Shown one piece after another: positions 5,681-64,000 of a DNA stretch of 64,000 bases (position 1 is the first letter of the stretch; each line of letters starts with the position of its first letter). The stretch is taken from contig JAPTYO010000002.1 in the NCBI GenBank assembly GCA_036873135.1, positions 50,648,204-50,712,203 of the forward strand, written 5' to 3'. A program made the position numbers and the translations under genes. The DNA is from Clarkia xantiana subsp. parviflora (Eukaryota > Streptophyta > Magnoliopsida > Myrtales > Onagraceae). Below the pieces are notes generated by a model. That model did not search any database, had not been told where the DNA came from, and worked only from the letters and a program-made list of their open reading frames with translations.

Positions 5681-5696
5681 TTTGCCCCCGAGTCAA
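5681..5696 (-). other. Polypurine tract of element A
   Basis: On the minus strand this reads TTGACTCGGGGGCAAA and abuts the TGATGG start of the 3' LTR. It resembles the tracts of F and E (CTTGGGGGCAAA). Confidence 0.8.
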
Positions 5697-13140: not shown

Positions 13141-13143
13141 TCC

Positions 13144-15040: not shown

Positions 15041-15069
15041 TCCTCGAGTGATCGTAAGGCTTTTTGTTC

Positions 15070-15090
15070 GAGTCACGCAGACGACGCCAC
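15070..15090 (-). other. Primer binding site of element A
   Basis: On the minus strand TGGCGTCGTCTGCGTG directly follows the 5' LTR. It differs by two bases from the TGGCGCCGTCTGTGGG of elements B and G. The first nine bases of that form complement the 3' end of plant tRNA-Asp. Confidence 0.75.
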
Positions 15091-25915: not shown

Positions 25916-27178
25916 GTGAAAGCACTGCCCTTCTTCCCAGTAGGAGTGATGCTTAGATAAGAAGAATTATCCTGAGTGGGAGCAATGTTCAGACTCAAGA
26001 TGGGATAAGCGAGCCTAGACGAAGTCAAAGGCATCGAACTTCTCCCAAGAAGTATCCCATCGAGAAGGGTTAAATATTCACCCTAACTTCCGTTGACGAA
26101 CCGGTAACGGTTCAACAAGCGTTGAAATGACCTCAAGCGAAGAAATGGAGGAAGAGATCGCCTCAATGAAAGCCAATTTGGTATGGTCTTTAGTTGATTT
26201 ACCTGCTAACCGCAGAGCCATAGGGGCTAAGTGGGTTTTGAAACCGAAACTCACTCCTGATGGAAATTCGAGCGATACAAAGCATGACTAGTTGCGAAAG
26301 GATACACCCAGCTTCACGAAGTGGACTTTGATGAAACATACTCACCGATTGTGCGTTACACCACTGTCAGGGCAATCCTAGCCCTGGTCGCATGGCTCGA
26401 TCTAGAGCTGCACCAAATGGATGTTAAGACCGTGTTCCTCCACGGAAACCTGGAGGAAGAGATCTATATGGAGCAACTAGAGGGTTTCATTACTCCTGGT
26501 AACGAACGAAAAGTTTGTAAACTCCAAAGATCCATTTACGGTCTTAAACAGTCGTCTCGGCAATGGTACCGCGGATTCCACGAGGAAATCACTGGAAACG
26601 GATTCATGAACCTCCACGAGGATCCATGTGCGTATACAAAGACCTCTAAGTCTAAGTACGTTATCTTAACCTTATACGTGGATGACATACTTTTTGCTGC
26701 GAACGATGTGAGTTTCATGAATGAATCAAAGTCCTGGTTGGCATCTGTATTTGAGATGAAAGACATGGGAGAGGCTACGTACATCTTGGGCATTAAAATT
26801 TCTAGAGATCGTGCCGCCCTGATGTTATGTCTATCTCAGGAAGCCTACATCAACAAACACTTGAAAAGGTTCAGATTACAAGATGCCAAAACTGTGGAGA
26901 CGCTGGTAGTATTCGGGTGCCCGTTGTCAAAACGTGACGGCCCCAAGAACCAGCAAAAGCGTGAACAGATAAGGAAAACATAGTATTCAAGCATGGTCGG
27001 AAGTCTTATGTACGCCATGCTTTGCACTCGTCCGGACATCTGTTACGTTGTGGACCTAGTAGCAAGATTCCAATTAGACCCTGCCTATCAACATTTAAAG
27101 GATGTAAAACGGATCATACGTTATCTGAAAGGTACTGCCGACTACAAAATGTGCTATGAGGGCTGGAAGTTAGAATTG
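25916..27178 (+). pseudogene. Copia pol fragment D (reverse transcriptase)
   Basis: Ty1/copia reverse transcriptase cut at both ends. Visible: WVLKPKLTPDGN, then after a break FDETYSPIVRYTTVRAILA, LHQMDVKTVFLHGNLEEEIY, GLKQSSRQWY, the catalytic LYVDDILFAA (YVDD at 26674-26685), and further motifs to CTRPDICYVVDLV and YLKGTADY. Longest open frame 26321-26983. Breaks include a TGA near 26130, a TAG near 26291 and a TAG at 26981. The left end matches the pre-RT region of copia J (about 57480). The right end stops inside the RT-RNase H connection and runs straight into gypsy sequence. Confidence 0.85.
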
Positions 27179-29834
27179 GCAGAGGGATCCACAGGATTGG
27201 CTTCGGGAGGATTGGCTATCGGGGCGTCCGCACTTGGAAGTTTAGAAGCGTCTTCGACAATTATGGGGGTACTCCCCCCATCACTCTCCTCGGAAAGAGC
27301 AAAATACTTCTTCGCAAAGGGAGCGAGGGAAGGAGACTTGTCGAAGTTGATTGCATCCCCGTACTCCAGGTGGAGCTCCTCAACCGCATTGAAGAGAGTG
27401 TTCTCCACCTCCGCGCCAAAGAACTTCATGGCATCAGCTTGGAAGCCCTCAGACCTCCGATAGTCCTCCCGGCCCTTTACCTCCGCTTCGGCCAGCTGCG
27501 CAGGAAATCCCGCGATTAGCTCCTCCAGAGTCTTCTTCTCAAGGACCAGTTTGTCCTCGGCAACCTTCTTCTCCTGGGTCAGCCTGTCCACAACTGCCCC
27601 CCGCTCCTGCCGCTCTTGCCTCAAGAGCCCCTCGAAGTCCGCGATCTGCTGCTGGAGGTCTCGAATCTTCTGATTGAGGACAGCCTGCTCTTTGACAAGC
27701 ATCCCCCGCGAAGACTGGGAGGCCTTGAGATCCTCCTGAAGCTGCTCGCGGACCCCTCGGTCCCGCTCCCGGGACTCATCGTAGGCAATAACATACCCGA
27801 TGAGGCGGTTGAAGTCCCCGAGCTCCTGAAACAAGAAGGAAAAATGTTAAAGGACAAACGACCCGATTTATCATCAAAAGATGAAGAAGCGAAGTTTTAC
27901 CTGTATACGGCGCATGGCCATATTCCGGACATCCCGCTGCATGTGCGTCCGATTGAGGCAAATCGGATGCCGCATAGTAGGCAGGATCGAACCTGCCAGC
28001 AGATGCAGGGCCAGCTCCTGGTCCTGTTCCCCTTGTGTGAGCGGGACTCCTTGAAGCGTCTGGATAGGAGTCCAGGGGGCATTCTCTTGTGAAGAATCGA
28101 AGGGCTTGTAGAAGTTCCCATCAAGAGCAAGAGGAGAAACAGGACGAGGAATGGAAGGGCACGACTCCGTCTCGGCCCGAACAGGGGAAGGAGTGAACTC
28201 ATGAATAGGCGATGGCTACCGCTGCTGCGGAGAAGATGAAGGAGGCGGCCCCTGAGGGGTTGGTTTCAAGGGGGATTGCCCCGCCTTCCGACGCTGACGA
28301 GGGGGGCCACCCTCGTCAGTCTCCTCAGAGGAGTCCAAGGTCTCCACCTGACGAAATTTTTCGCCAGTTGGTGCCTTCTCTCCAGCTGAGGAAGGCACCC
28401 CCGCTGAAGTCGGTGCGTCTGCGGAAGCTGCAGCACCCGATGGAGCTCCTGAGCGACCTGCACCTAGAGGATGAGAAGCTTCAGAAAGGTAGTCAGGAAG
28501 TTCATCGGGATTCTTACACCAAATGATACGTCGGGAGACGTATTGATCCTTCCCACGATAATGATAGTAGCCTGCCTTCAGAACTCGGGGAGTTTCGCCT
28601 CGAAGGATTCTTTTGACGTCAGCGATGCGGGCTTCCTTGGTCGAGGAAATCAAATCCTTCGGGACCATCCTTTTGTATGATTTAATAGCAAGTCGGAGTT
28701 GTTTACCTTCTTCAGCATTCTGGACATCGAAGAGCTGGTCCAGATCCACCCGCTTCCGCTTGGGTTGTTCCGCTGAAGGAGACCCCGACCTAGCAGCAGT
28801 CTTCTTGGCGGACTTCCTCTTCCGCGAGGGGCGGACAGCATCAGTCTCCCCCTGCTTAAGGAATAGATCGGTCAGCACAGATACCTTCTTGGCTGCAAAT
28901 AGTAAACAAAGAAGAGTTAGAAGTTTACCCAAGGGACCATATTAGAAGGGTCGTCGAAGAGCTGCCCCCCAGAAACAATATCGAGGAGTCGGATCCCGGC
29001 CTGCACCAGGTCCCGCTCCACGAGGGAGTTAGCGTTGAGAGGAGTGTAAGACTCCTCCCACCGATAAAGCTGGATAAGTTGGAGAGTTTCAAAATCCTCG
29101 TCGGCATAAGTGTGGAAGGCAGGCGGAGGGTCTGCTGCCACCTCCCATCGAGGCCAAGGAATTGAGGAGTGACGGATGAAGAAGTAGCTCTTCTTCCAGC
29201 TACTGTTGTCGGACCCTGTATCAACCATGAGTCCCCGACCCTTGACCACCTTCCAGGTGTCATTAGTCCAGCCACATCGGGCAAGCTGCTGCTTACTCCA
29301 TTTAGGCATCCGAGGGTAGAAGGCGCAAACCCCCGCCTCATTGCACTTCATCCCATAAAAGGTTCTGAAGAGCTGGAGGCTGTAGACCCACTTCTGTTGG
29401 AGACAGAGGACTTAAAAGGCGTTCCAGAGGCGGATGGCATGGGGAGAAAAGGTAGCGGGGTGCGTTCTGTAATGATGGCATAGCTCGACCAGATTACCGC
29501 AAAAGGGGAACCTGATCCCCGCTGATATTTGTCCCGTAGAGAAAAATACCTCCCCTTTATGGGGACGAGTAACCTCAGGGTTACTCGAGGGGCGATGCCG
29601 AGGATACGGGAAACGAGGTTCCCAGGTGATGGTGATACAACCCTCTCGGAGAGCTGCATCATAAGCAGTATTGGAGATCTCATTTGGAGCATAATCAAAA
29701 TTAAAGGGTTTTCTCCCCTCGGAGCTGGAACCGCTGTCTGAAAAGCAACCATGGCAAGAAAATACAGTGGGACTCTTGGAAAACTAAAAAGGAAAAGACG
29801 AACAAGCAACGAAGGGGGATCCCTTACCAGACAT
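27179..29834 (-). pseudogene. Antisense gene of element E
   Basis: ATG at 29834-29832, seven coding bases, donor GTAAGG at 29827 and acceptor at 29738, giving MSD then SGSSSEGRKPFNFDYA. Core: AGIRFPFCGNLVELCHHY, then a TAA in VLC near 29413, then WVYSLQLFRTFYG and KKSYFFIRHSSIPWPRWEV. A short GT...AG interval (about 28893-28928) leads to a basic exon (GKQLRLAIKSYKRMVPKDL, GYYHYRGKDQYVSRRIIWC) with a TAG at 28215-28213. A further interval near 27834-27900 precedes a long coiled coil and the motif YRRSEGFQADAMKFF. Two stops suggest it is dead. Closest relative in the window is the gene of F. Confidence 0.72.
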
Positions 29835-30374: not shown

Positions 30375-30387
30375 TCTTGGGGGCAAA
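30375..30387 (+). other. Polypurine tract of element E
   Basis: GTCTTGGGGGCAAA abuts the LTR start at 30388, identical in its last 12 bases to the tract of F. Confidence 0.8.
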
Positions 30388-30704
30388 TGATGGGTTCGAC
30401 TACAGCCGTCAGGCCCTTTAACGGCGAGGAAACGGCAAACAGGCCCACCAGGCCCAAAATGAAGGTCAAGATGACTTAGGAGAAGGGTCCCGACGAAGGG
30501 AGTCCCGACGAAGCAAGGTCCCGACAGAGTCGGTCCCGACGGTTGAGCTAGAAGCTCCCGATGAGAAGCCTTTAAGTAGGCCCCGATGATGAATCCCTGA
30601 GAATGATTGGCCCTGTCACGATGACGAGGGGCCCCGAGCGGTGACACAACGAGATAACTCTGGAGTCCCCGACGGGAGTCGGGACTCGTTATCAGAGGAT
30701 AAGG

Positions 30705-30835
30705 CCAAGATATGCGGGGCGTGGCCGGGATACGCGGAACGTGGTTAAGATACACGGAGCGTGGCCGAGATACGTGGGGCATGGCTGAGATACGCGAGAT
30801 CACGTCCGAGATATGCGGGATACGGGCTAACCACC
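30705..30835 (+). repeat. Tandem repeats just upstream of the TATA box, LTR of E
   Basis: About six degenerate copies of a unit near GGCCGAGATACGCGGAACGT. F and G have about two copies, with AAGCGG instead of ACGCGG. A changing copy number directly upstream of a TATA box is typical of LTR enhancer repeats. Confidence 0.65.
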
Positions 30836-30855
30836 CCTAACGGTTCACCAGGTAC

Positions 30856-30899
30856 CTGAGGCATCTCTTTGCCTATAAAAGGGCAGGAGATCACCTCAG
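30856..30899 (+). promoter_or_regulatory. TATA box in the centre of an inverted repeat, LTR of E
   Basis: CTGAGG and ATCTC (30856-30867) pair with GAGAT and CCTCAG (30887-30899) with a small internal mismatch, and TGCC pairs with GGCA around TATAAAA. The inner arm differs from that of F (TAAC/GTTA), yet pairing is kept. Confidence 0.65.
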
Positions 30900-31084
30900 A
30901 AAGACTTACGTTGAGTTCAATACACTTTGAGATTACTGCTTGCCAGTCATACGAGATACTCATTTAAGCATCGGAGAGGGATTCTGGGTCACCGCCCGGT
31001 CTATCCCCTCTTGCAGGATTGCATGGAGCAAAGGAGCTAGGATTGCCGTCAGAGTCCGTACCGGAGTTCCACCGTGATCCAACA

Positions 31085-40028: not shown

Positions 40029-40791
40029 TGTTAGGTTATAGGTTTCAGGTCAACGGGTCGCCGACCTAAATCCTACTTCTCACTGGAGAACTAGCGGATC
40101 CTGTGCTTCGTGAGCTCGGTCGTTCTGATCCGTATCCTTCTGCCCTTCTGCTTCTCTTCTCCACGTGCCCTGCAAGAGGGGAAATATCAAGCACGGAGGG
40201 GGGGGGGGTGGTGTTTGATGTACCCTCTCCGATGGTTAAGTCAATACGTTTCTTAGAGAGATAAAACTTAGAGAGATGTCAGAGCTAAATTGTACACTTA
40301 GCCAAAATGTTCAAATGAATGGTGGAAGGGTTATATTTATAGGCAACGGTGTCATTAAGGTGGCTTAATGACATCGTTAACCTTTAAACACAATTAATTA
40401 GCTCTGATCACATAATTAAAACCTTAAAGCACGGAGAAAGTCGGCGGAAATAAACTGAGTATGAGAGTCTGGAAGCGGTGCCGGGGCCCTTGGGGGGGGG
40501 GGGGGGGAGAAAATCCGACCCCCAAGGGTAGGGGTTGGGTGTGGCCACCCAACCCCTCCCTAGGGAGGATAGGGTTGGCCAACCCTATCTCCCCTAGGGG
40601 AGGTCGGGTGTGGCCACCCGACCTCACCTAGGTGAGTTTGCCGCGGTCCGGACGAGTATTTTGGCCTCGTCCGGACCGTTGGTGTTTCCGCGGGGTGTTT
40701 GGGTCGAAGTTTCGATTTATAATCGTTAACGGGGTGATCAAAATAAGACGATTCGGAAGTCAATGGGTTCAAATTGGGCGTATATCCATCA
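40029..40791 (-). repeat. 3' LTR of element B
   Basis: 763 bases, TGTTAGGTTATAGG to ATATCCATCA in plus reading. Hairpin arms ATCAAGCAC (40186-40194) and GTGTTTGAT (40211-40219) around a G-run; core on the minus strand at 40223-40241; TATATTTATA near 40332-40341; second G-run near 40493-40508. The polypurine tract (minus GACTCGGGGCATG) follows. Confidence 0.92.
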
Positions 40792-42319: not shown

Positions 42320-44750
42320 ATGAGTAAGTTTCTCTTTCTTTCTATTCGTCGCATTGTTTTCTTTCCTGCCACTAGTTCGGTGTCGAATTCTGAGCCGTAT
42401 ACTGAGCCGGGGTGTTAGTCGGAGCCTGATTCGAGCTTGGGATTTCTCACTGCCTTTGATTTAGGTCTCGCTGCTTTGTCGGAGAACTACCAGACTAGCT
42501 CCGACTATAACGAGCATGTTACCTTAGGTGACATTTTTCCCTTAGATGAGCATTTATATCCCTTCCTTCCTTCTTTGGGAAACACCCGCCAGACAGTGAC
42601 AGAGCCCCCCCAGGGGGAAGGTTGTTGTTTATCCTTCCCAGATTCGGTTTGGATTGCGGCTGCCTTATTGCGATGATCTTGTAGAATTGAGAAGATTCTT
42701 TAGGATCTCCCCTGTGAACCTTGCCCCTAGTGCTATCCGCGTCTGGGTGGGCTTCCGGGTGTTATGCCACTGGTACTCCTGGAAGTATTCATTGGTCCTG
42801 TTCCGGTGCTTCTTCCGATTCCAGTATCAGAGGAAGGTAGGCTTCGCGAGTTTTGTGACTCGCTACCCACTCCTCAAAGATTCCCGATTTGCTGATTTCG
42901 GGTTGAGCGGAGCTGAGTGGGATACTTCTCTTCGTTTTGTGGCCCGGAGCGATAACTCGGTGAGCCACTGGGCCAAACATTATTTCTTTATCACGGATCG
43001 ATATGTTACCTGGCCGGTTTTGAATGAGGATCGGTCGGACGGCTGGCCTGCCTTTGGAGAGTTCTCTTCTGTGGACTTAGAAACTATGAAGATCATCTAT
43101 GAGAGCCACATGACTCAGTCATACTGCCCTGTGTCCTTGGTGACCGAGACAGATCTCTATGAGGCAGGGATTAGTTTGACTCCTGACTCCGGGGGTTCGG
43201 TATGTTACTTAGTCTTCTCATCTACATTTACTTTATGCTTTTCCCTTGTAGGTTGGTTTCACGGGAAAACGTATAACGTGCAGGCAGCACCGGTCGATCT
43301 GAGCAAGAGGAGGGCTCCCTCCAGCTCTACTCCGAAGAAGTCCCCTATGCTTGGGAAGACTGCTGGGGCCTCTGGTATACTTCCTTCTCTTTTCCTCTTA
43401 TGGTATACTTGTGTTTTTTCTTACGCTGCTTTCCTTGTATTGTTAGGGCACTCTCCTTTGGTGACCGAGAGAGTTGTCTCTGTGGGCAAGGGCTCTGGAC
43501 CCTCTAAGTCCAAGTCACGGAGGTCCAACTCTGAGGCCGGGGCCTCGGCTGTCAAGAAGAAGAAGGCTGCAGATCCTCCTCCCCCTGGTATTCGTCCCCC
43601 GACCCTGTCTCGCGACAAAGAGATAGTGGTCGAAGAGGCACCTTCCCGAGCTGATAAAGGGAAGCGGCCTGTTGGTGATGGTGGAGTGGTCACTGGTTCT
43701 CCATCCCCTGCCCCCCAGGCGAGGGCACGGTCGTCAGGTTCGATCTTCTTCATGTCATTGATGCTTCTATGTTCGTATTTTTCTTTATCTTGCTTTGTTT
43801 GTATAGGTGGGCCTCCGGCTTTGAGTTGGAAGGATTTTACGCGCCTTACTGACGAGGATATCGTTGGATCTGAGTGGACTCCTTTTGCTGGGTTGAAGGA
43901 GTTCCACTTTGATAGCGGATCTTCCTTGCGCACCCCGGAGGTTGGCATCCGTGTGCTTCGCGGTGCCATCGCTCCTGGTGATCGTGCCGCTCAGCCTAAG
44001 TCTCCTAGGGAGACCCGGCGTTTCGTTCAGGGTGTATTATCCCGTTATGTGCCTGTGAGTGGTGTCTCTCTTCCATTTTTACTTTCATGTGGTTGCTTTT
44101 CCAGTTACTTACCCTTGTTAAATTTTCAGGGTATGTCTGACATGGTGAACATGTCGTCCCTTGTGCTTGAGCTGTCAGATGAGAAGAAGGCTCTTGAGGA
44201 TAGCCAGGTATCCCTGAAGGCGGAGCTTGCCACTGCCGCTGAGAAGGCTCGCCTGTCTGACTTGCAGATGCAGGAGCTTAGGGACCAGGTGTCTTTACTT
44301 GAGACTACCGTAGGTAGCTTGCGCCGTGAGGCTGAAGTTGCATCGTTACTCCATTCTGAGGAGTTGAGGAAGCTTGAGGCAAGGTGCCGGGCAGAGGAGA
44401 GAGCTGTTGCAGTATCTGAGTACAAAGCTTCCTCTGCCTTTACTGCTGATTACAGTGTTCGGCTGAACCAGGAGATGAACCAGTTTGGCGATTATCTTGT
44501 TGATCACATCTTTCTTATTGATCCCCAGTTTCCCGTCGGTGATCTGGGTGACTTTGGACCGTATGCTACTGGTTATATGGCCGTCCTTAGGGGTCAAGCT
44601 GTCGTTGCTGATGAGCCTGCCCCTGCACAGGTGGATGCTACACCTGTGGATGTTGATAGTTCAGACTCTTCCTTCTCTTCTTCTATCTCTGCTGGTGGTT
44701 CGTCCTCAGAGGGTCAGGACCGTGAGGATTCTCTAGCAGGCTCTGGTTGA
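42320..44750 (+). pseudogene. Antisense gene of element B (Transposase_28-like domain, middle domain, coiled coil)
   Basis: ATG 42320 (MSKFLFLS, compare MSKSHIPT in C). A TAG near 42416 and a frame change near 42650 break exon 1. The core follows (LPYCDDLVELRRFFRIS, WVGFRVLCHWYSWKYSLVLF, WAKHYFFITDR). Introns by GT...AG and alignment: 43200-43251, 43375-43446, 43738-43806, 44055-44129; by chance the unspliced frame from 42654 stays open through all four. Middle domain: SSLRTPEVGIRVLRGAIAPGD. Last exon: MSDMVNMSSLVLELSDEKKA, a coiled coil, EYKASSAF and a Ser/acidic tail, TGA at 44748-44750. Function unknown. Confidence 0.78.
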
Positions 44751-46063
44751 TGTAATGATATCTCTCTATCTTTGTATATATGACTTTACTTTTCCTCCCC
44801 TTTGATGGTTGAGTGTCTCTCCCCTTGATGGGCCGAGTTCATTTTGGGATTGCTATACTTTGGATTTTGTGTTGCTTTCCTTCATCATATGGTTATGTTG
44901 GCAGTGTGTGGAACACTTGCCTTTTGATGGGTACTTCGTATGTTTCTGTATATATTCCTTTGATCATGCACTCTTCCTTTTGTTGTGTTTTCCTTTACTT
45001 ATCCTTCTTTTTTGTTTTCCTTCACATCATACCTGCTATCTCATCAAGAAAAAACATTATGTGTTCTTTATACAACTTTGCTTTGCAATTATTTTCTCAT
45101 GGGATCCTTCTTAGTATGGTGCAATGATCTCTTCTGATACCCTTTAAATGGTATGTTATGATACTGTTAGACCAAAGATACGCTCTTGGTGGGCGTCGAA
45201 TCTGTTAACGAGACAGGCTCTCGGAGGGCACTTAACGTTTCACAGGATAGGCTCCCGGAGGGCATAAGTTAGACCAAAAATACGCTCCTGGTGGGCGTCG
45301 AATCTAGTAGTTTGAAATCTACCTCAAGATACGCTCTTGGGGGCGTCGAATCTGGTAGTTTGAAATCTACCTCAAGATACGCTCTTGGGGGCGTCGAAGG
45401 TCGTAGTTTTTAGAAACTACTCTCAAGATACGCTCTTGGGGGCGTCGAAATTCGTAGTTTTTTGAAACCACTCTCAAGATACGCTCTTGGGGGCGTCGAA
45501 GTTTGTAGTTTTTAGAAACCACTCTCAAGATACGCTCTTGGGGGCGTCGAAGTTCGTAGTTTTTGGAAACCACTCTCAAGATACGCTTTTGGGGGCGTCA
45601 AAGTTCGTAGTTTTTGGAAACCACTCTCAAGATACGCTCTTGGGTGCGTCGAAGGTCGTAGTATGAAATCTACTCTCAAGATACGCTCTTGGGGGCGTCG
45701 AAGTTCGTAGTATGAAAACTACTCTCAAGATACGATCTTGGGGGCGTTGAGCGTCGTAGTATGAGAACTACTCTCAAGATACGCTCTTGGGGGCGTTGAG
45801 GGCGTTGCTGACTTGGAAGTCATATCTGTGTAAGGATAACATAATGATTGTATCATCACCTTCTTTGAAAGATACTTTTGAGTAACTTCTACTTCATTAG
45901 GAGCATTCATGCTTTATGTACACTTGGGGTGCCTTGGGTGGATCAAGACACCCTTTGGAAGAAATCAAAGATAGTTGTAGAGTCATAGTAACTTCTTGAG
46001 TTCTCCTTCTCAAAAGTTGTTTTTGGAAAACTCAAAATGCTTGAACATGCAAAATGCTTAATA
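44751..46063. other. Spacer between convergent genes of element B, with a tandem array
   Basis: Non-coding AT-rich sequence to about 45160, the tandem array 45165-45810, and unremarkable sequence to the gag' stop. A run of about 100 hydrophobic residues can be read at 44809-45127 but lacks relatives in A and C. Confidence 0.55.
45165..45810. repeat. 51-base tandem array in element B
   Basis: About a dozen copies of a unit near 51 bases containing GATACGCTCTTGGGGGCGTC and CGTAGTTTTTGGAAACCAC. The first copies are more divergent (GGCTCTCGGAGGGC forms). Within each unit CAAGA and TCTTG can pair around TACGC. Confidence 0.85.
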
Positions 46064-46669
46064 TTAAACTAAGGATATGGGGTGGTGAGTGCGTCTGTTG
46101 CCCTTTAGGCCTCCTTTGTAAATCATTTCCTCCACTTCCATCTTCAGCACCATGCAATCATTGGTTTGATGCCCCCAGGTCCCATGGTACTCACACCAAC
46201 CCTGTGCATCTCTTCCTAGGAAGGCTTTGCCCTCCTCTTTGCATGTGGGTAGCTCTTCCTTGAGGTACTTCTGGAAAATTTCCTCTATCTTCACTGTAAG
46301 GGGTGTCAATTTGAAGTTTACACCTCCTTTCAGTGTGTCAGTCTCTCTTCCTTCTTCAAGGACTTCTTCCGGTTGCCCTACCTCTTTTGCGAACGCCTTG
46401 TCCAGCTTCTGTTTGAGCTCCCTCATTGTGCTTGTCATGACCACCTCATAGAGCCCTCCATATGCTTCAAATGAGGTTGGATGCATGTTTCTAAGGAAGG
46501 CTCTTACGGCCTCTCTTCTTGTGATGTCCATGTTTGCACCATAGCTGAAGAATCTCTCAAAGTAACTTGATATGGGCTCCCTTGGCATTTGCTTGATGTC
46601 ATCTATATATTGTAAACCCCTTTCAATGGATTCCCTTGTTCTCTTTCCTTGGCACTCTCTGGCTGCCAA
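46064..46669 (-). CDS. Second gag-like module (gag') of element B
   Basis: 201 residues from ATG 46669 on the minus strand, overlapping the end of the protease frame by 67 bases in another frame. Order: basic head, SSYFERFFSYGANMD, REAVRAFLRNMHPTSFEAYG, TSTMRELKQKLDKAF, NFKLTPLTVKIEEIFQKYL, and a knuckle WCEYHGTWGHQTNDC with CX2HX4HX4C spacing, then LKMEVEEMIYKGGL. It resembles the second half of gag (WCDNHEAYGHDTNEC in the gag of this element) but lies after the protease, in the place of reverse transcriptase. Homologous modules lie in A and C. It could be expressed by frameshift or reinitiation. RNA or Gag binding is an inference. Confidence 0.72.
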   Translation of the reverse strand: MAARECQGKRTRESIERGLQYIDDIKQMPREPISSYFERFFSYGANMDITRREAVRAFLRNMHPTSFEAYGGLYEVVMTSTMRELKQKLDKAFAKEVGQPEEVLEEGRETDTLKGGVNFKLTPLTVKIEEIFQKYLKEELPTCKEEGKAFLGRDAQGWCEYHGTWGHQTNDCMVLKMEVEEMIYKGGLKGNRRTHHPISLV

Positions 46670-47454
46670 GGTATGCTTGTTACCCTTACAGCCTTACCTC
46701 TCTGCTTCTTCTTAGCTGGTCCTTGAAAGAACTGCCTACTCAGGCGGAGTGCAATTCCCTTTTTCATCTTTCCCTGCCTTGGCTTTTTCATCACCTTCTC
46801 TTTGTCTTGGATGGCCCCTGTCATGACCATAGCCACTGTGTCTGACTTGTGTGATCCACGTCTCATGGAGTTGACGTAGCACTGCCTTGCAGTTCGTTGA
46901 TCACCCAATACTTCCCCAATTCCGTTTTCAGTGATGTACTTCAGCTTCTGATGCACGGTAGATGGCACAATTTCATATGGATTTATGGTTGTTCTTCCTA
47001 AGATCCCGTTGTAGGCTCCCAGGCTTTCAACCACCATGAAGTTGACGTTCACTCTCAGCTGTGTCCATCCTTGGCCCATGGTCACTGGCAGGGTTATCAT
47101 TCCCAAGGGATAACTTGTTGCCCCTGAGAAGCCAACCAAAGGGAAATTGACTGGTTTGATGTCTGCTTTTGTTTTTCCTATCTCTTCCAGGACCCTTAGG
47201 CTTAGGAGGTCTACAGAGCTGCCCCCATCTACCAGTATTCTTTTTACATCGAAGTTATCGATGTCCATCGTGATGACTAAGGCATCATCATGCGGGAAGA
47301 CAATATGGCTCTTGTCCTTCTCCGAAAACTCAATCTTCATTTCTTCTCCTTCTCGTGGCCTCTTTCTCCACTTTGGTACTGAGCCCAACTTGGATGCATA
47401 AACTTCCCTTGCATTAGCTGTTGGGCCACCTGATGCCACTCCTCCATGTATCAT
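46603..47454 (-). CDS. Aspartic protease of element B
   Basis: Open frame of 283 residues from the internal Met at 47454. It is in the same frame as gag and separated from it only by a TAG at 47535-47533 plus 26 codons, so it may come from readthrough or be a broken Gag-Pro fusion. Motifs: SEKDKSHIVFPHDDALVIT, the active site RILVDGGSSVDLL (near 47215-47245), YNGILGRTTINP, KYITENGIGEVLGDQ and RQCYVNSMRRG, then a basic tail. The usual next domain, reverse transcriptase, is absent. Confidence 0.82.
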   Translation of the reverse strand: MIHGGVASGGPTANAREVYASKLGSVPKWRKRPREGEEMKIEFSEKDKSHIVFPHDDALVITMDIDNFDVKRILVDGGSSVDLLSLRVLEEIGKTKADIKPVNFPLVGFSGATSYPLGMITLPVTMGQGWTQLRVNVNFMVVESLGAYNGILGRTTINPYEIVPSTVHQKLKYITENGIGEVLGDQRTARQCYVNSMRRGSHKSDTVAMVMTGAIQDKEKVMKKPRQGKMKKGIALRLSRQFFQGPAKKKQRGKAVRVTSIPWQPESAKEREQGNPLKGVYNI

Positions 47455-47532
47455 GTTTATAGTCCCCCTCTTGTTGGGTGGGGGATTATAATCTACCTTT
47501 TCTTTGCCTTTATCCCTGTGTGATGGCCCTAG

Positions 47533-49410
47533 CTACATGCTGTTGCCACCGTGATCAACAAACTGTTTTAACTCCCCTCTCTGGATGATATTGTTGATAC
47601 TTAGCTTCAAGATAAAGCATTCGTTCGTATCATGCCCATATGCCTCATGGTTATCACACCATCTATCCTTGTGTGTCCCTACCATTGGCGCTCTCCATCT
47701 TCCGGGGGGCGACCATAGTTTCTGATTTCTCATCTCTCTTAGGACCACTGCTGGGGTGGTATTCAATGGTATGAACTTGATGACATTTATTTCCCTAGCC
47801 TTCAATGGCTCACCCATCGGATTTCTTTGCTGAGGCGGGCGCCACTCCTGTTGCCTTATGGGTTGAGGTGCCTGAGGTGGCTTTCCCTTATTCTGCTTTG
47901 TGTTGTCCTCCTTTGCTGCTTGAATCTTGGCTTTCTTACTCACCCTGTGCCTTTCTAGGTCTATATGAGTTTTCACTCTCCCTGCTAGCTCCTCTAAGGT
48001 GCTTGTCGGTTTCTTGGCCATCTTTTCTGCTAGTGTGGACCCGAAACGACCTAGGTTTCTTATGAAGGCTCTTATTATTTCACCCTCGGTGATGTCGCCC
48101 TGTATGTCTGCTATGTTCTGGTTGAACCTAGTGTAGTAATCAGCCAAAGATTCGTCATTTTCTTGCTTCACATCATCTAGGGAGCCTGTTCCTTTGACTA
48201 GCTTCCTTTCTCCTAGATATCTCTGAAGAAATTTCGCCTTTAGCTGCGCCCATAAGTGGATGCTCTCAATAGGTAGGCTAAAGAACCAATGTGACGCCAC
48301 CCCTGATAGGGTGTTTGGAAATAAGAGTGCCTTGTAGCCGTCATCAGTAGTTCTCCCGAATAGAGAGGCTTCATACTGTTGAATGTGCTCCAAAGGGTCT
48401 CCCTTGCCATTGTACTTTGCTATCTGTATTGTATGCAAGGAGTCTGGCACTTTGTTCATTTCCAACTCCCTCGTGAAGGGGTGGTTCGTGTTGTCACTCA
48501 GGCAGTGTAGTCCGTTTCTCTTTGACTCACTCATCTTTCTCACTATCATGGCTTCTATCTCCTCCGGGGTAATCATCACCGGCGTTGGAGTATAGTCTCT
48601 CTGATATCCTCCATAGTTATAAACTGGGCTTGCTGGGATCCCTTGTCCGTGTTGGTACGGACTGTAGGCGTATCCCTGATATCCTTGCTGGGGTACTTGT
48701 TGGAATTCTTGCCTCCTTGGAGGTCTTGCCTGTCTATCTGCCCCCAGCGGGGTGTATGCCCTGGCGTCCTGCTGCGTCTGTTGCTGCCTTGGAGGCACAA
48801 ACTGCTGCCTTCCCTCTGGGGGTGGCCCTTGGTTATCTCTCATTTGTTCTTCTCGCTGCCCTGTTCGAGGGTGCGAGTGGTGTTCTTCTTCTGGGGCTTG
48901 TTCTTCCTCATGAACTTCTTCTTCTTCATGCTGGTGTTGCCTTCCCTGCCTGTTCCTCAGAGTCTCTCTATAGGCTAGTAGCTCATCCAATGCGCTCATC
49001 AACCCTGGAGTCACTGTATGTGCTCCTTGTGTGTATGCGGGTCTTGTGCTGGTTGTGTGGGCGCGATTGTCGTTCCTTTGAGCCGACATCCCATATGGAT
49101 ATCCTTGAGGTTGCGCCTCATAGTAGTATCCCTGAGGAGGTGCCGTGTATTGGGATGGCACTCCCTGTTGCTCCCCCTCTCTTTGTGGCCTCCTTGCCAA
49201 TGGAGTTGAGGCTGTGGAAGACTCAGCCCCAGCTGGGCGTGAGGGCCCTCCTTCCTGGTTGTTAGGCTGGGGTGCCTGTGGGGGTACCTGAGGCTCTGGG
49301 TGTACAGGTTGTTTCTCTGGGTTAGGCTGCGTTGCTGGAGGTATAGGCTGTCTCCCTCTCCTATTGCCCCCAGGTGGGCGGTTATGCCTAAATGCTAAGC
49401 TATTCGTCAT
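47533..49410 (-). CDS. Gag of element B
   Basis: Intact 625-residue frame from ATG 49410, about 50 bases after the PBS. N-terminal 250 residues: Pro/Gln-rich, low complexity (QVPPQAPQPNNQEGGPSRP type). Residues about 290-480: retrotransposon gag domain (NHPFTRELEMNKVPDS, YNGKGDPLEHIQQYEASLF, ASHWFFSLPIES, FLQRYLGERKLV, YYTRFNQNIADIQGDI). Near residue 590: knuckle RWCDNHEAYGHDTNECFIL, CX2HX4HX4C, where copia gags have CCHC. It ends with TAG followed by CTA. Expected to form the particle and package RNA. The best-preserved gag of the three non-autonomous elements. Confidence 0.88.
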   Translation of the reverse strand: MTNSLAFRHNRPPGGNRRGRQPIPPATQPNPEKQPVHPEPQVPPQAPQPNNQEGGPSRPAGAESSTASTPLARRPQREGEQQGVPSQYTAPPQGYYYEAQPQGYPYGMSAQRNDNRAHTTSTRPAYTQGAHTVTPGLMSALDELLAYRETLRNRQGRQHQHEEEEVHEEEQAPEEEHHSHPRTGQREEQMRDNQGPPPEGRQQFVPPRQQQTQQDARAYTPLGADRQARPPRRQEFQQVPQQGYQGYAYSPYQHGQGIPASPVYNYGGYQRDYTPTPVMITPEEIEAMIVRKMSESKRNGLHCLSDNTNHPFTRELEMNKVPDSLHTIQIAKYNGKGDPLEHIQQYEASLFGRTTDDGYKALLFPNTLSGVASHWFFSLPIESIHLWAQLKAKFLQRYLGERKLVKGTGSLDDVKQENDESLADYYTRFNQNIADIQGDITEGEIIRAFIRNLGRFGSTLAEKMAKKPTSTLEELAGRVKTHIDLERHRVSKKAKIQAAKEDNTKQNKGKPPQAPQPIRQQEWRPPQQRNPMGEPLKAREINVIKFIPLNTTPAVVLREMRNQKLWSPPGRWRAPMVGTHKDRWCDNHEAYGHDTNECFILKLSINNIIQRGELKQFVDHGGNSM

Positions 49411-49443
49411 CGCTCTCGTGATTGCCAGGATTTCATTTCGAAG

Positions 49444-49461
49444 CCCACAGACGGCGCCAAG
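49444..49461 (-). other. Primer binding site of element B
   Basis: On the minus strand TTGGCGCCGTCTGTGGGC follows the LTR end. TGGCGCCGT complements the 3' end of plant tRNA-Asp; the rest is the extension common to element G. Confidence 0.8.
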
Positions 49462-50220
49462 TTTTAGGTTATAGGTTTTAGGTCAACGGGTCGCCGGCCT
49501 AATCCTACTCCTCACTGGAGAACTAGCGGATCCTGTGCTTCTTGAGCTCGGACGTTCTGATCCGTATCCTTCTGCCCTTCTCCTTCTCTTCTCCACGTGC
49601 CCTGCAAGAGGGGCAATATCAAGCACGGAGGGGGGGGGGGGGTGGTGCTTGATGTACCCTCTCCGATGCTTAAGTCAATACGTTTCTTAGAGAGATAAAA
49701 CTTAGAGAGATATCAGAGCTAAATTGTACACTTAGCCAAGATGTTCAAATGAATGGTGGAAGGGTTGTATTTATAGGCAACGGTGTCATTAAGGTGGCTT
49801 AATGACATCGTTAACCTTTAAACACAATTAATTAGCTCTGATCACATAATTAAAACCTTAGAGCACGGAGAAAGTCAGCGGAAATAAACTGAGTATGGGA
49901 GTCGGGAAGCGGTGCCGGGGCCCTTGGGGGGGGGGGAGAAAATCCGACCCCCAAGGGTAGGGGTTGGGTGTGGCCACCCAACCCCTCCCTAGGGAGGATA
50001 GGGTTGGCCAACCCTATCTCCCCTAGGGGAGGTCGGGTGTGGCCACCCGACCTCACCTAGGTGAGTTTGCCGCGGTCCGGACGAGTATTTTGGCCTCGTC
50101 CGGACCGTTGGTGTTTCCGCGGGGTGTTTGGGTCGAAGTTTTGATTTATAATCGTTAACGGGGTGATCAAAATAAGACGATTCGGAAGTCAACGGGTTCA
50201 AATTGGGCGTATATCCATCA
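49462..50220 (-). repeat. 5' LTR of element B
   Basis: About 759 bases, near-identical to 40029-40791. Its outermost TG has become TT in plus reading, so the exact left edge is uncertain by one or two bases. Hairpin arms ATCAAGCAC (49618-49626) and GTGCTTGAT (49645-49653) are perfect here. Core at 49657-49675. Confidence 0.9.
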
Positions 50221-53021: not shown

Positions 53022-53535
53022 AGGGTTAAAGGTACTTTTTATACCACATGTTTGACCGAATGTGGCTTTTAGTACTAGATGTTTACTTTTGTATACTTTT
53101 GGTACCAAACGTTTGAACAAATGTGGCTTTTGGTACATTCGTTAGTTGGCCGTTAATTTTGGCTGTTAAATGACATGTGCAAGTCACGTGATCGGTTCTA
53201 AACTTTTAATTTTGTTGAATTTAGTCCCTGAAATATATTCCTAACTTTTATTTTGTTTATTTTAGTCCTAAAGCTTCAAATCGAACCCAATTGGGACCTA
53301 TCCCCAATTGGGTAAATTTGACCCAAATTGGGCTATGTCAATTGAATTCGATTGGTTTAATTGGGTTCGATTTGAAGTAATATGACTAAATTAAACAAAA
53401 TAAAAGTTAGGAATATATTTGAGGGACTAAATTGAACAAAATTAAAAGTTTAAAGTCGATCACGTGACTTGCACTTGTCATTTAACGGCCAAAACATTCA
53501 GTCAAACGTGTGATATGAAAAGTACCTTTAACCCT
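53022..53535. mobile_element. Foldback MITE in the leader of copia J
   Basis: Left end AGGGTTAAAGGTACTTTT and right end its complement, with arms that pair over most of the element (TTAAATGACA, GCAAGTCACGTGATCG and TTTTAATTTTGTT occur on both sides in opposite orientation). The left arm has an extra stretch of about 100 bases with an internal repeat. AATATAT flanks both sides (53015-53021 and 53536-53542), though the region is AT-rich. No coding sequence. The corresponding leader of L lacks it. Confidence 0.7.
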
Positions 53536-55980: not shown

Positions 55981-57753
55981 GATGAAAATCATTCATTCTC
56001 TTCCGCTTCTAAACATTCGAGAGTAATTCATTTTCCTTTTGAATTACAGAACCGAGAAACGGAAGTAACGACCTGATCGAGGATGTCCCAGTAGAATAAA
56101 GATAGAATGAAAGATTTTTATCTTTAAAGTTGCTAAAACTTCTTGACTTTTATTTTAAGATACTCTCAAATAAGTTCCGTAAAGGATCATATTATTTTTC
56201 CTAAGTATTCGAGAATACTTAAGTTGAGTATTGAATTTATCATCGTCCGTTTTAATCTTATTATTAACGCTATTCAACAAATTGCTAATACATCCTTATT
56301 TGAGATTAAGTACTCCATTAAATAATAAATTCCCCGGTTAATGTGCATGAAAAACCAATTTGATATTAAATTTTGAAAATGAAACGATTCAAAACCACGG
56401 GATAAAATTGGTTTTCTGCGCCGTACGCGGGTGTACCTCGAAAGACGGAACACATCGTTTTAAAGTACAAATTTAATAATGAAGTGTTTTAAAGTATGAA
56501 TGCTAATTTCCGTTTATGATTCCTTGGAAATAACTCATTGATGACTACCATGGTTAGAAGTACGCTTTAATGCTACTACGATCGAGTAGTACATCAACTA
56601 TAGCATTAAGCAGAAGCTCAAATGCATAATCCATGAGGTGGATAAGTCTCTGGATGAGTTGATAAACGAAAAGTAGTCAATAAAATGACACTCCCACTAT
56701 AGGCCTTTAAACGAAAAGTTTGGCTAAGCAATCATATTATTAAATACTTCGATAAACATAGTTTAAAATTACATTATGTTAGAACTCAACATTAATTGTT
56801 CCTATGGAATGAAATTAAGTTGATTTCATATTAATGTAAAACTATTTTCCAATAAAATCGGTTAGAGCGTTACCTTAAAAGCTAAGAAATGATACGGGTG
56901 AAACCTTATCATAAAGTAGCATTAATTTGCACATTATATATGTATTTATTAAGAGTACGGTCTACTATTAAAAGATACAAGTTTAAAATTAGCTTGGATT
57001 AATGGTAACGTGGTCGAACATGACACATTATAGAAATTTGAGGATGGACTTCCAATGCTTTGCGGAACGAACTAAAGTACTGATCGGATTAAAATGGATA
57101 ACGGTGATTCTCAGGTCCCACTTACTTCGAGTGGGAGAATGATATAGCATTAGTAAATGCATTAGTGAATGACATGGTAAATGATGATGGAAACATCCTC
57201 ATAATAAATCCAGTGGGAGGGCTCACTCCCCTCACATAATCATCATTAAATGTTAATGCGAATCAAGTCGGACCTGATAATCATAATGCTGAACCATTGG
57301 ATGAAAATCCAATAATCGTCGCAACTGCCCATTATTCCTAGTGGGAGGAAATGACTAACTTAATTCCAGATTCTAGTGATCAATGAATAAATCTCGGAGG
57401 TAAAATTCTGAGACCAATAGGTCATTCTAAGAAAGTTGTAGACCAAAATTTCAAGCACCGCCATTGTTCCCAGTGGGAGTAATGCTCCGAAAAGAAGCAC
57501 TATTCCGAGTGGGAGTAACGTCAGACTTAAGATGAGATTATCGAGCCTAGACTTAGTCTAAGTCAACGAACTTCTTTTAAGAAGTATCCCATCAAGTGAG
57601 ACATTCGTTCACGAACCAGTGACGGTTCAGCAAGTATTGGAAGAACCTCAAACGTCGGAATGAAGGAAAACAATGGAGGATAAAAATGCCTAAATTAGAA
57701 CATATTCAGTTTTGGTCTTCAGTTGATTAATCTTCTAACCACAGAGCTAGAAA
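55981..57753 (+). pseudogene. Degraded protease/integrase region of copia J
   Basis: About 1.8 kb where protease and integrase should be. No open frame of note and no integrase motif I can identify. Repeated phrases CCCAGTGGGAG or CCGAGTGGGAG occur four to five times at 57130-57520. The last part matches the left end of copia D. Confidence 0.5.
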
Positions 57754-59170
57754 GTGAAATTTTATAATTCACTACTGATGGAAAATTTGAGTAGTGCAAA
57801 ACTCGAACGATTGCGAAAGGATATACCCAAATTCACGGAAAGGACTTTGATGAAACATACTCACCAACTGTGCGTTACACCACAGTTAGGGCCATCCTTC
57901 CCCTTATTGCAAGCCTCGATCACGAGCCTGCATCAAATGGATGTTAATGACCGCATCTCTCCATGGAAACCTGGAGGAAGAGATCTATTTGGAGCAGCCA
58001 GAGGATTTTATGACTCCTGGCAAAGAACGTAAAGTTTGCAAACTCCAAAGATCTATTTACGGTCTTAAAAAATCGTCTCGACAATGGTATCGCAGATTCC
58101 ACGAGGAAATCGTCGGAAAAGGATTTGTTAATCTTCACGAGGATCCCTACGTTTACACCAAGACCTCCGGGTCTAAATATGTCATCATAACCTTATACGT
58201 AGATAACATACTCATTGCTGCAAACGATGTGAGTTTCATGAACAAATCAAAGTCCTGGTTATCATCAGCATTTGAGATGAAAGACATGGGAGAGGCCACG
58301 TACATCTTAGGCATTAAAATTGCCTGAGATCATGTCGCCCGAAGATTGAGTCTATCTCTAGAATCATATATCAACAAACTGTTGAAAAGGTTCAGAATCC
58401 TCGATGCTAAACTCGTGGATACGCCGGTTGTGTTCGGGTGCGTGCTGTCGAAGTGTGATGGTCCGAAGAACCAGCAGGAGCGTGAACATATGAAGAATGC
58501 AGAGTTTCTAAGCATGGTAGGAAGTTTAATGTACGCCATGCTATGTACTCGACCAAACATCTGTTACGCTGTGGGCCTAGTAGCAAGATTCCAATCAGAT
58601 CCTGGCTATCAACATTTAAAGGCCGTAAAATGAATTATGCGATATCTGAAAGGTACTGCTGACTATGTTCTGTGCTATAAGGGCATGCAAATCGAATTGA
58701 CTAGTTATAGCAACGCCGACCACAGTGGCGATCCGGACGATCGTAAGTCCACCACAGGGGGAGTTTTCCTCCTTGCTGATGCTGCCATATCATGGGTAAG
58801 CAAGAAGCAATCATGTGTCGCGCTTTCAACTATGGAATCAGAATTCGTTGCCCTTTCTAAAAACGCACAAGAAGCAGTTTGGCTGAAAAGGCTTCTTACT
58901 GCATTAACTGGCACTAATAAAGAGAGCAAACCTGTGAAGGTATACTCCGACAGTCAGGCAGCCATTGCAGCAGTTAAGAATCCAAAGTACCACAGTAGGA
59001 CCAAACACATTGATATGAAATACAATTATGCCAAATCAGTTGTGGAAGACAATATAATCACTTTAGAATACTTGTCCACAGACAATATGGTCGCAGACCC
59101 ATCAACTAAGCCATTACGTAGAGAAATTTTCGAAAAGCACGTAAATATGCTTGGATTACGTAGGGCTTAA
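57754..59170 (+). pseudogene. Reverse transcriptase and RNase H of copia J
   Basis: RT in several frames: frame changes near 57930, TGA at 58326-58328 and TGA at 58631-58633. Motifs: HGNLEEEIYLEQPEDF, GLKKSSRQWYRRFHEE, LYVDNILIAA (second Asp of YVDD changed to Asn, 58196-58207), CTRPNICYAVGLV. RNase H is open from 58637 to the TAA at 59170: GTADYVLCYKG, KKQSCVALSTMESEFVALS, VYSDSQAAIAAVKNPK, RTKHIDMKYNYAK, DPSTKPLRREIFEKHV. Classic copia order RT then RNase H at the C-terminus. Confidence 0.88.
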
Positions 59171-60782: not shown

Positions 60783-63143
60783 ATGGCGGCTGGCAAGCAG
60801 AAAAAGCAAGGGCAGACTGGTGGTTCTAACCTCCCTGCTGAAACTCAGAATTCAGAGCTGCCGGAGCGCAGTGTGGATCAAAATCCCCCTGCTGAGGTTT
60901 CCCGAACAGGGGGGCACAATGAAGTTCCTGAGGATACTGCTCGACACCAAGAGAATAGGGAGGAGGATGCTCCTCCAAACGCGGACCTGACGAAGGTAGT
61001 GGCGGATCCCATGCCGATGTTCTTGGAGGCCATAGAGGCTCTCCTAGAGTGGAGAGAGGCTGCCAAGAAGAAGGAGGAGGTGCCTCCGCCTCCGCCGAGG
61101 GAGGTTCGGAATGTGCAGGAGGCCCAACCCAGAAACCGGGACAAGGGCAAGGAGCCCGCTCAGTCGGAGCGATTTGAGATCGATGGGCCTGGACCGGTGC
61201 AGCATAGGACCATTCCTCTTAATGGTCCCATCACCCCCGACCAGGTGGTGAAGATCGTGAACATCTGCATGGGGGACCAGAAGCCGATGATGTGGGAACT
61301 GAGGGATCGATCCACCCATCCCTTTGTTCCCCGATTGATAGACACCCTCGCCCCGCCAGGGCTGGGTATCCCCACAATTAAGGAGTATGATGGCGAGGGA
61401 GATCCAGTTCGCCATGTCCAGAAGCATGTCATGGCCTGTCTGGGCAGAGCCCCGGATGATGATACTGTGTGTGTGTTGTTCCCGGCCACATTGGGAGAAA
61501 GGGCCCTGACGTGGTTCTTCAGCCTGCCCCCAGGGTGCATCTCCAGCTGGGCTGATATGCACGACCGTTTTATTCAGCAGTACCAGGGTCGTCGGCGCCT
61601 CTTGAAGAGCGTGAGGTCCCTGGCCCAGGTGGTGCAGAGGCCCGACGAAATGCTGGTGCATTATTACCAGCGGTACACTGCTAGTGTGGCCGAGATCGAT
61701 GAGGAGATATCAGAGGGAGAGACTATCCGCACCTTCCTTCGGAACCTGACAACCCCCTATGGTTTCGACCTGATGCACAGCGTGGCCGCGAAGGCCGTGT
61801 GGAGCATGGAGGCGTTGCAGACGAGGGTAAAGCAGCAAATCGATGTGCAGGAGTCGAAGATAGCTGCCGGAGAGCTTGATCCTCCGAAGTCAAATAAGGG
61901 GAAGCAGTCGTTCAAACCATTGGACGACCGTAAGTGGAGGGATAAATCCGAGGGCAGTCGGTGTCGAGGCCGCTCTGATCGAAGAGAGGACAGGCGTCCC
62001 CCGAGGAAGGACAAGCGGGAGGATCATCACATTCCTCTCAATAGTTCTATGGCTGCCGTGTTAACGGTGATGGATCGACAGGGTATCTCCAGGTACCCCC
62101 CGAAGAAGGAAGGAGAATTTTTGGGAGCTCGCACCGATCGTTACTGTCGGTTCCACCGCGCCAGCATTCACGACACTAACCATTGTCGGGAGTTGAAGAA
62201 GGAGATCGAAAAGCTGATCCAGAAGGGGAAGCTTAAGGAGTTTGTGGCTGGGAGGCGGAGTCGATCCCGCTCCCGATCTCGATCGCGGTCCCGTTCCCGA
62301 TCCCGCGATCGGTCCCCAAAGAAGAAGAAGTCTGAGCCGGAGTCTTCTGGTGTCCGTAAGGAGAAGCGGGGCACCATTAATGTGATTCATGGAGGATTGG
62401 CTGCAGGAGGTGATACCACAGCCTCTCGGGAAGTCTATGCCTCTAGAATTTCCGCTGCTGTGGTGCTAGGCAAGAGGACCCGATCCTGGACCGTGAAGGA
62501 AGAGATGGTGATTTCCTTTTCAGCGGAGGACCTGGTAGGTGTGGAGACTCCACACGATGATGCTTTGGTCGTGACCCTGGACGTGGATGGGTACGAGATG
62601 AAGCGAATTTTGATCGACGGAGGGAGCTCCTCCGATATTCTGTTTATGGATGCGCTGGAGGCCATGGGGAAAACGAAGAAGGACCTGAAGCAGGTGAACT
62701 TCCCGATGGTTGAATTCTCTGGTTCTACCTCCTATCCGCTGGGAATGATCACCTTACCAGTGGAGTTCGGTAGTGGGTGGAAAGCGGAGAGGAGGAATGT
62801 GGAGTTCGTGGTGGTTGAGTCCGCGGGGACCTATAATGCGATTATCGGGAGAACTACCATCAACCCGCTGATGGCAGTTGCCTCGACTGTTCACCAGAAG
62901 ATGAAGTTCCCGACTGACCACGGAGTAGGGGAGGTCAAGGGCGACCAGGTGGCTTCCAGGAAGTGCTATGTTAATGCCACCCGAAGGAGAATACGGGAGG
63001 CTATGACTATCCTCCAGACCGTTGCTGATCCCAGAGAGGAGTTTGGGCGTCCCGCCCCTATGGAGGATTTGAAGGAGGTCGAGATTGACGGACCTCAGAG
63101 GAAGGTGAAAATCGAGTCCGCCCTGTCTGACGAGAGGGCCTGA
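60783..63143 (+). CDS. Gag-protease polyprotein of element G
   Basis: 786 residues from ATG 60783, 55 bases after the LTR. N-terminus acidic/Pro-rich; gag domain about 195-375 (EYDGEGDPVRHVQKHV, ERALTWFFSLPPGC, FIQQYQGRRRLL, YYQRYTASVAEIDEEI); knuckle YCRFHRASIHDTNHC with Cys455, His458, His463, Cys468 (CX2HX4HX4C); Arg-Ser dipeptide repeats at about 490-516, followed by Lys-rich sequence; GTINVIHGGLAAGG linker; retropepsin with active site Asp612 in LIDGGSSSDIL and C-terminal YNAIIGRTTINP. Intact, ending in TGA 63141-63143. Makes the particle core and the maturation protease. The RS stretch is unusual beside the gags of A, B and C. Confidence 0.92.
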   Translation: MAAGKQKKQGQTGGSNLPAETQNSELPERSVDQNPPAEVSRTGGHNEVPEDTARHQENREEDAPPNADLTKVVADPMPMFLEAIEALLEWREAAKKKEEVPPPPPREVRNVQEAQPRNRDKGKEPAQSERFEIDGPGPVQHRTIPLNGPITPDQVVKIVNICMGDQKPMMWELRDRSTHPFVPRLIDTLAPPGLGIPTIKEYDGEGDPVRHVQKHVMACLGRAPDDDTVCVLFPATLGERALTWFFSLPPGCISSWADMHDRFIQQYQGRRRLLKSVRSLAQVVQRPDEMLVHYYQRYTASVAEIDEEISEGETIRTFLRNLTTPYGFDLMHSVAAKAVWSMEALQTRVKQQIDVQESKIAAGELDPPKSNKGKQSFKPLDDRKWRDKSEGSRCRGRSDRREDRRPPRKDKREDHHIPLNSSMAAVLTVMDRQGISRYPPKKEGEFLGARTDRYCRFHRASIHDTNHCRELKKEIEKLIQKGKLKEFVAGRRSRSRSRSRSRSRSRSRDRSPKKKKSEPESSGVRKEKRGTINVIHGGLAAGGDTTASREVYASRISAAVVLGKRTRSWTVKEEMVISFSAEDLVGVETPHDDALVVTLDVDGYEMKRILIDGGSSSDILFMDALEAMGKTKKDLKQVNFPMVEFSGSTSYPLGMITLPVEFGSGWKAERRNVEFVVVESAGTYNAIIGRTTINPLMAVASTVHQKMKFPTDHGVGEVKGDQVASRKCYVNATRRRIREAMTILQTVADPREEFGRPAPMEDLKEVEIDGPQRKVKIESALSDERA

Positions 63144-64000
63144 GAATTGATTGAGCTGCTGAAGGAGTTCAAGGAGCTGTTTGCCTGGTCCCCGAGTGAC
63201 ATGTCAGGAATCAGCCCCGATGTGATTGTGCATGAGCTGAAGATTGATCCCGCGATCAAGCCTATGGGCGTCCGATGGGCGCAGACAAGAGGATCACGAT
63301 CCAGCAGGAGGTGGGCAGGTTGCTCAATGCTAGATTTATCAAGGAGCTCCGATTCCAGACTTGGGTCGCCAACCGGTTCTGGTGAAGAAGAGCAATGGGA
63401 AATGGCAGATGTGTGTTGATTTCCGCGACTTGAATAAGGCTTGCCCGAAGGATTGTTACCCGCTTCCGAGGATCGACCAGTTGGTGGATGCCACGTCGGG
63501 ACACGAATTGCTGAGCTTCATGGATGCTTACTCTGGCTATAATCAGATCAAGACGGCTAAGGAGGATGCCCCCGACACTGCCTTTTATGCTGATAGTGAC
63601 ATTATCACTACGATGTCATGCCCTTTGGATTGATTAATACCGGGGCAACTTATCAAAGGATGGTGAAAAAGCTGTTCGGGGACATGCTGGGGAAAACCAT
63701 GGAGGCTTACGTGGACGATATGCTGGTAAAGTCCCGACAGGCCGAAGATCATGTAAGCAACTTGGCGGTGGCGTTTGAGCGGATGAGGCTTCATCAAGTT
63801 TGTTTTAACCCAGCCAAGTGCGCCTTTGGAGTGCACTCGGGGAAGTTTTTGGGCTTTATGGTAAGCCAAAGGGGAATTGAGGTGAACCCCGAGAAGCTGA
63901 GGGCAATCGAGGAGATGCAGTCTCCGACGAATCATCGGGAGGTGCAAGTGCTGAATGGCCGACTAGCTGCAATGAATCGCTTCCTGTCTAAGGCAAGCGA
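63144..64000 (+). pseudogene. Start of pol (reverse transcriptase) of element G, frameshifted and cut by the window end
   Basis: Directly after the TGA and in the same frame: LIELLKEFKELFAWSPSDM, typical of the start of Tat pol. Then frame changes near 63275, 63375 and 63605. Motifs recovered across frames: ITIQQEVGRLLNARFIKE, VLVKKSNGKWQMCVDFRDLN, KDCYPLPRIDQLVD, FMDAYSGYNQI, and the catalytic AYVDDMLVKS (YVDD at 63708-63719). RT is cut by the window end; RNase H and integrase would follow. Three indels mean this copy is inactive, unless they are sequencing errors. Confidence 0.85.

Follow-up and report, generated by a model that had tools for sequence, protein, structure and literature searches.

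A truncated second Gag follows the protease in three diverged long terminal repeat elements of Clarkia xantiana

We analysed a 64,000-nt window of the Clarkia xantiana subsp. parviflora genome (assembly GCA_036873135.1, contig JAPTYO010000002.1, positions 50,648,204–50,712,203, forward strand); all coordinates below are window positions, position 1 being the first letter of the window. Three diverged long terminal repeat (LTR) elements in the window, designated A, B and C, carry gag, a protease frame and then a second gag-derived frame, called gag′ here. In B, these frames are read 5′ to 3′ on the minus strand. The gag gene (47533–49482; 649 amino acids) has a Retrotrans_gag domain at residues 387–477 (E = 3.2e-13) and a CHHC knuckle near its end. 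It is followed, after one TAG stop and in the same frame, by the protease frame (46603–47532) and then, in the −1 frame relative to the protease, by gag′ (46064–46693; 209 amino acids from stop to stop). The two latter frames overlap by about 90 nt, and most of the protease frame followed by gag′ is contained in 46064–47454. A splice-donor-like AGGTAAGGC is present at 46699 (minus strand), where the protease end and gag′ overlap, near the start of the gag′ frame. The B protease had no Pfam match. By blastp it was 60% similar to the protease of A and 58% to that of a fourth element, D, and the homologous part of the D open reading frame (ORF) gave an aspartyl-peptidase-like match below the cut-off (PF20729, E = 0.00046). 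The name protease rests in part on a DGGSS stretch and on the position after gag, both of which we take to be typical of such proteins.

The gag′ frame of B is homologous to the second half of gag. Using blastp, we aligned it with residues 430–639 of B gag (E = 5e-15; 26% over 210 columns), and the blastp score was reached by none of the shuffled gag′ sequences, either against B gag (0/1000) or against D gag (0/1000). Profile–profile comparison of gag′ (A, B and C) with gag (A, B, C and D) gave a probability of 99.3% over 180 columns, both profiles including pieces, since A and C are broken. From about 46621 down, where the homology to gag begins, the B frame is open for 185 codons, while the other two minus-strand frames carry 15 and 9 stops; at the adjacent stop rate, the chance of such an open frame is ≈ 1.5e-4. 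A strict pattern for the motif that we presume to be the major homology region (MHR) had five matches in the six frames of the whole window, each falling within a gag or gag′ frame (in 40 shuffles, 0.075 on average and at most 1). A strict CHHC knuckle pattern had seven, of which six were in gag or gag′ (shuffles: mean 0.2, maximum 1). Both patterns were composed after the sequences had been seen. The gag-like motifs quoted for B in the original prediction, which was made from the DNA letters before this analysis, are present in the frame.

Against Retrotrans_gag (PF03732), B gag scored 50.1 bits, whereas the gag′ frames of A and B, at 14.4 bits each, fell short of the cut-off of 24.1 and covered profile positions 53–95 of 97 only. 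An AF2 model of the first part of B gag′ matched capsid C-terminal domains (CTDs), within the limits of model quality. With that caveat, Pfam, the profile comparison and the model agree on a capsid CTD fold without the capsid N-terminal half. The predicted gag′ product is a truncated second Gag. It comprises a capsid CTD, which bears the MHR-like motif, and a CHHC zinc knuckle, but neither the N-terminal region of gag nor the capsid N-terminal half is represented. According to the original prediction, three diverged elements have a gag-like module immediately behind their protease. This was borne out by blastp, profile, shuffles and patterns, and the similarity to gag on which it hinged was found by both blastp and profile; the second gag-like module, however, corresponds only to the second half of gag.

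The same module is found at the same place in A and C, as predicted, although the first half of C gag′ stands on weaker grounds. The gag and protease of A (12418–14890, minus) are interrupted by stops and frameshifts. Its gag′ (11711–12300, minus) lies in the frame of the protease behind two stops, carries a single frameshift and, in the knuckle, a single stop, and matched B gag′ with E = 3e-21. In C, gag and protease (24159–25911, minus) are broken and the 5′ end is cut at about 25.9 kb, at the start of a copia-type fragment. The C gag′ (23505–24048, minus) has a stop at its start and one frameshift, and the last ligand of its knuckle is S. Its knuckle half matched B gag′ (E = 5e-14). The first half gave only a weak match, with B gag (E = 0.047), and its assignment rests on order, alignment (31%) and a loosened pattern. 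C gag′ was found only with patterns allowing the stop, H and S (6/6 and 7/10 matches of the loosened patterns in gag or gag′). The evidence base for gag′ is three elements in one window, with one copy per family.

The broken frames of A and C raise the question of a recombination scar, in which the 3′ part of a different gag would have been joined to the protease by template switching, leaving a sequence with no present function. The −1 frame of gag′ in B would fit such an event, as would its extent from the domain start to the end of gag, like a copied gag tail. The breaks in A and C, however, strike gag and protease as well as gag′ and so say little on gag′ alone. Against a scar stand the long open frame in B, the retention of MHR-like and knuckle residues, and a pN (proportion of nonsynonymous differences) below pS (that of synonymous ones) among gag′ sequences that group apart from gag. 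We regard a scar as distinctly unlikely.

Between A, B and C, gag′ showed pS of 0.73–0.85 and pN of 0.40–0.48. The difference was above zero in 4/4 gag′ comparisons, of which three were pairs over the capsid part and one was a pair over the knuckle part, whereas it included zero in two wrong-frame A/B comparisons. These comparisons are between families, not among intact copies of one, and synonymous sites between the families are saturated. As read from these alignments, the differences among the three gag′ sequences show purifying selection. The nonsynonymous substitution rate dN was higher in gag′ (0.57–0.76) than in gag (0.33–0.45) and protease (0.27–0.31). In an unrooted tree of seven rows and 130 columns, a branch with 99/98 support separated the three gag′ sequences from the four gags, and this branch was long (1.06 + 1.19). 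Because the tree has no outgroup, it does not tell duplication within the lineage from capture of another gag. Since the gag′ sequences group apart, the substitutions counted postdate the origin of gag′, unless A, B and C each took it from one unseen donor family; such separate acquisition may have occurred. The apparent conservation of gag′ by selection suggests a job in the particle. Functional retention had been proposed in the original prediction; purifying selection between A, B and C and an RT-bearing relative without gag′ (D, below) support it, and the mechanism that we infer is given below.

Net charge (K + R − D − E) was calculated with domain bounds set by eye and with the A and C linkers cut at the frameshifts. 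The capsid CTD had charges of −4, −3, −5 and −3 in gag of A, B, C and D, versus +7, +2 and +1 in gag′ of A, B and C. The linker from capsid to knuckle had +13, +13, +6 and +8 in the same gags, versus −13, −4 and −4 in gag′. Thus, the linker is basic in 4/4 gags and acidic in 3/3 gag′ sequences. One role suggested earlier was a second RNA-binding or packaging module. The single CHHC knuckle left in gag′, with four ligands in A and B and three in C, is consistent with this, and the charge from knuckle to end (0 in B gag′ and −3 in B gag) is neutral on the question. The replacement of a basic linker by an acidic one, however, argues against the usual basic RNA-binding domain and in favour of a module that contacts another Gag. 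An RNA-binding module accordingly seems improbable, and particle interaction, the other role suggested, would fit the linker charges better. This reversal of charge, in both the CTD (acidic in gag, basic in gag′) and the linker (basic in gag, acidic in gag′), suggests that gag′ serves as a heterotypic partner and not as an RNA binder or an additional shell builder.

We favour, with a probability of about 0.4, the reading that gag′ is a truncated Gag working through contacts with full-length Gag, either the element's own or that of a helper. Under this reading, gag′ would have arisen once, before A, B and C diverged. It would be produced together with Gag and protease, either separately or fused to the C-terminal end of Gag–protease, and would act in the particle by CTD–CTD contacts with full-length Gag. 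The most likely benefit would be that the element's Gag–protease and RNA are let into particles carrying the helper's Pol; the main variant would be a damping, p22-like action. As to expression, a search for a canonical −1 slip site gave a single heptamer-like match, which was in the wrong phase, and the TAG between gag and protease of B is absent at that place in A, C and D. These peculiarities of B may be lesions of this copy or may belong to its mode of expression. DNA similarity between the A and B protease/gag′ junctions (score 50) was not above that of 200 shuffles (mean 34, maximum 63).

Damping can also be taken as the whole role of gag′. Like Ty1 p22/p18, a self-encoded damper would disturb assembly and spare the host or the helper from overrun. 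The domain cut is the same as in p22/p18, whose minimal active part has the CA-CTD fold and whose target is Gag (PMC8458377, PMC4599808). The capsid N-terminal half is absent from gag′, and its faster change relative to gag would fit a conflict. On the other hand, gag′ is a separate, diverged copy, and a separate damper gene should be lost easily, yet three lineages kept gag′. We consider damping as the whole role unlikely. A broader proposal, also rather unlikely in our view but somewhat less so, is that a long-lived lineage without pol keeps a specialised, reversed-charge half-Gag that pairs with full Gag. This would be a dedicated capsid partner or regulator with a coding domain to itself, evolved independently of Ty1 p22 and of Gag-derived host restriction factors.

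Gag and protease are encoded in A, B and C, as intact frames only in B, and reverse transcriptase (RT) and integrase were not detected; gag′ stands where pol would be expected. The RT pieces of D (77 and 133 amino acids) matched only themselves in the window at E 0.01. A Pfam search of 10 minus-strand ORFs from A–C, the only search aimed at RNase H and integrase, found neither. The earlier claim that RT, RNase H and integrase are missing holds to this extent for the three elements, but the fourth, D (60783–64000, plus strand), has RT. D carries gag, protease and RT (RVT_1, E = 8.4e-17, at 63600–63998) and runs beyond the window end. No gag′ was found in D: the gag′ query matched only D's gag, and the run from protease to RT-like sequence leaves no room for it. 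D is the one RT-bearing relative examined, and the lack of gag′ there is in line with the original prediction. It also bears on the idea that gag′ came from an autonomous ancestor or sister with the order gag–protease–gag′–RT, A–C having merely lost the RT part. Just one RT-bearing relative was seen, which leaves some room for such an ancestor, and gag′ misses the Pfam cut-off and could escape notice in surveys. The arrangement of D nevertheless speaks against it, and the accessible part of a survey of Retand elements names no such domain (PMC11963269); we consider this origin very improbable. D shares the primer-binding-site-like TTGGCGCCGTCTGTGGG with B but only 17 nt of LTR, and is thus a relative, not a proven helper. 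Minus-strand frames at 2053–2632 and 28986–29564, which resemble the antisense ORF of B (below), precede D-like LTRs at 3433–4124 and 30387–31084, suggesting that D-like elements have this antisense frame as well.

The 5′ LTR of B (49461–50220, minus) is followed by TTGGCGCCGTCTGTGGG, and the 3′ LTR lies at 40029–40791 (minus). CATAT stands before the former and after the latter and was read by eye as the target-site duplication. Element A extends from LTR to LTR over 4764–16084 (minus), with the target-site duplication AATAG. Each of its LTRs holds a 39-bp tandem array of 5.7 copies (4932–5152 and 15259–15479). A, B and C have short LTR stretches in common (78–147 nt, 70–76%). The K80 distance of the LTR pair was 0.0255 in B and 0.0290 in A. 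At a substitution rate of 1.3e-8 per site and year, this corresponds to about 1 million years, which indicates recent movement of both A and B, neither of which has a detected RT.

Downstream of gag′, after 1.3 kb in B, 1.5 kb in A and 1.9 kb in C, lies an antisense frame. In B it is a Transposase_28 (PF04195) ORF (42600–44750, plus; E = 1.7e-6, 28.6 bits, cut-off 26.2). That of A (8083–10083, plus) is similar to it (63% over 67 residues, 28–29% further on), and that of C was just below the cut-off (E = 1.4e-5, 25.6 bits). Between gag′ and the antisense frame, B has a tandem array at 45280–45796 (10.4 copies of a 51-bp unit). A tandem repeat search placed an array at 6783–7399 in A, and a weak repeat at 22104–22609 was seen near the 3′ LTR side of C. 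Elsewhere in the window, fragments at 25920–27163 and 57453–58684 are 78% alike, and an ORF at 26288–26983 matched copia-type RVT_2 (E = 8.1e-53). An inverted repeat at 53157–53494 has 136-nt arms, 91% complementary, and a 66-nt spacer.

Searches outside the window returned little. A protein database queried with gag′ at E 1e-3 gave no match, nor did the last 361 codons of B gag used as a control. Since even gag is without a match, close plant relatives seem to be missing from this database, and the result carries little weight for gag′. Viral contigs gave no match with gag′ or protease. Sequence searches of solved structures gave weak matches only, the best being 0.68 (a kinase) and 0.82 (p24 capsid) for gag′ and 0.059 (Arc) for gag. 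The order gag–protease–gag′ did not appear in titles or abstract starts among the literature matches listed, a search that left most subscription papers outside. Two reviews that deal with additional ORFs of plant LTR elements (PMC7264820, PMC6317226) do not mention a second gag in their accessible parts. The persistence of elements without pol calls for an explanation, and a conserved extra capsid module in the place of pol offers a testable handle: whether such elements enter or regulate a helper's particles via capsid CTD contacts. If the reading is true, RT-keyed surveys would miss a class of structured, selected elements.

Among known systems, TR-GAG elements are reportedly non-autonomous and retain gag, and are said to be small and to carry gag alone. 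By its antisense Transposase_28 frame and tandem repeats, the A–C group appears to sit near the Retand elements (Tat clade, Ty3/gypsy), a placement made on these features and not on an RT tree. In the survey cited above, Retand elements have an antisense Transposase_28 ORF and, in about half of them, tandem arrays before the 3′ LTR, and A and B lie within the published range for both LTR size and internal size (PMC11963269). In contrast, A–C have no detected RT and have gag′ after the protease. Judging from the table and RT tree of that survey, all Retand clusters in it appear to carry RT, so that elements like A–C would fall outside.

The nearest elements by lifestyle are RLG_Sabrina_SA and RLG_WHAM of wheat, described as "semi-autonomous", coding only for Gag and protease and depending on a partner (PMC9744471). 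Two Sabrina variants encode proteins with a capsid-like fold (PMC9744471); their capsid-like ORFs replace GAG-Pro, whereas in A–C the second Gag half comes after gag and protease. In domain content, the closest system is Ty1 p22/p18, the C-terminal Gag half with a CA-CTD fold and no N-terminal domain, which targets Gag and disturbs particles (PMC8458377, PMC4599808). In Ty1, p22 is made from the gag gene itself as a shorter product, whereas gag′ is a separate, diverged sequence and any inhibition by it is putative. On the sequence evidence, gag–protease–gag′ is a real and conserved domain order for which we found no earlier description, and it is a variant of the non-autonomous Gag–protease elements.
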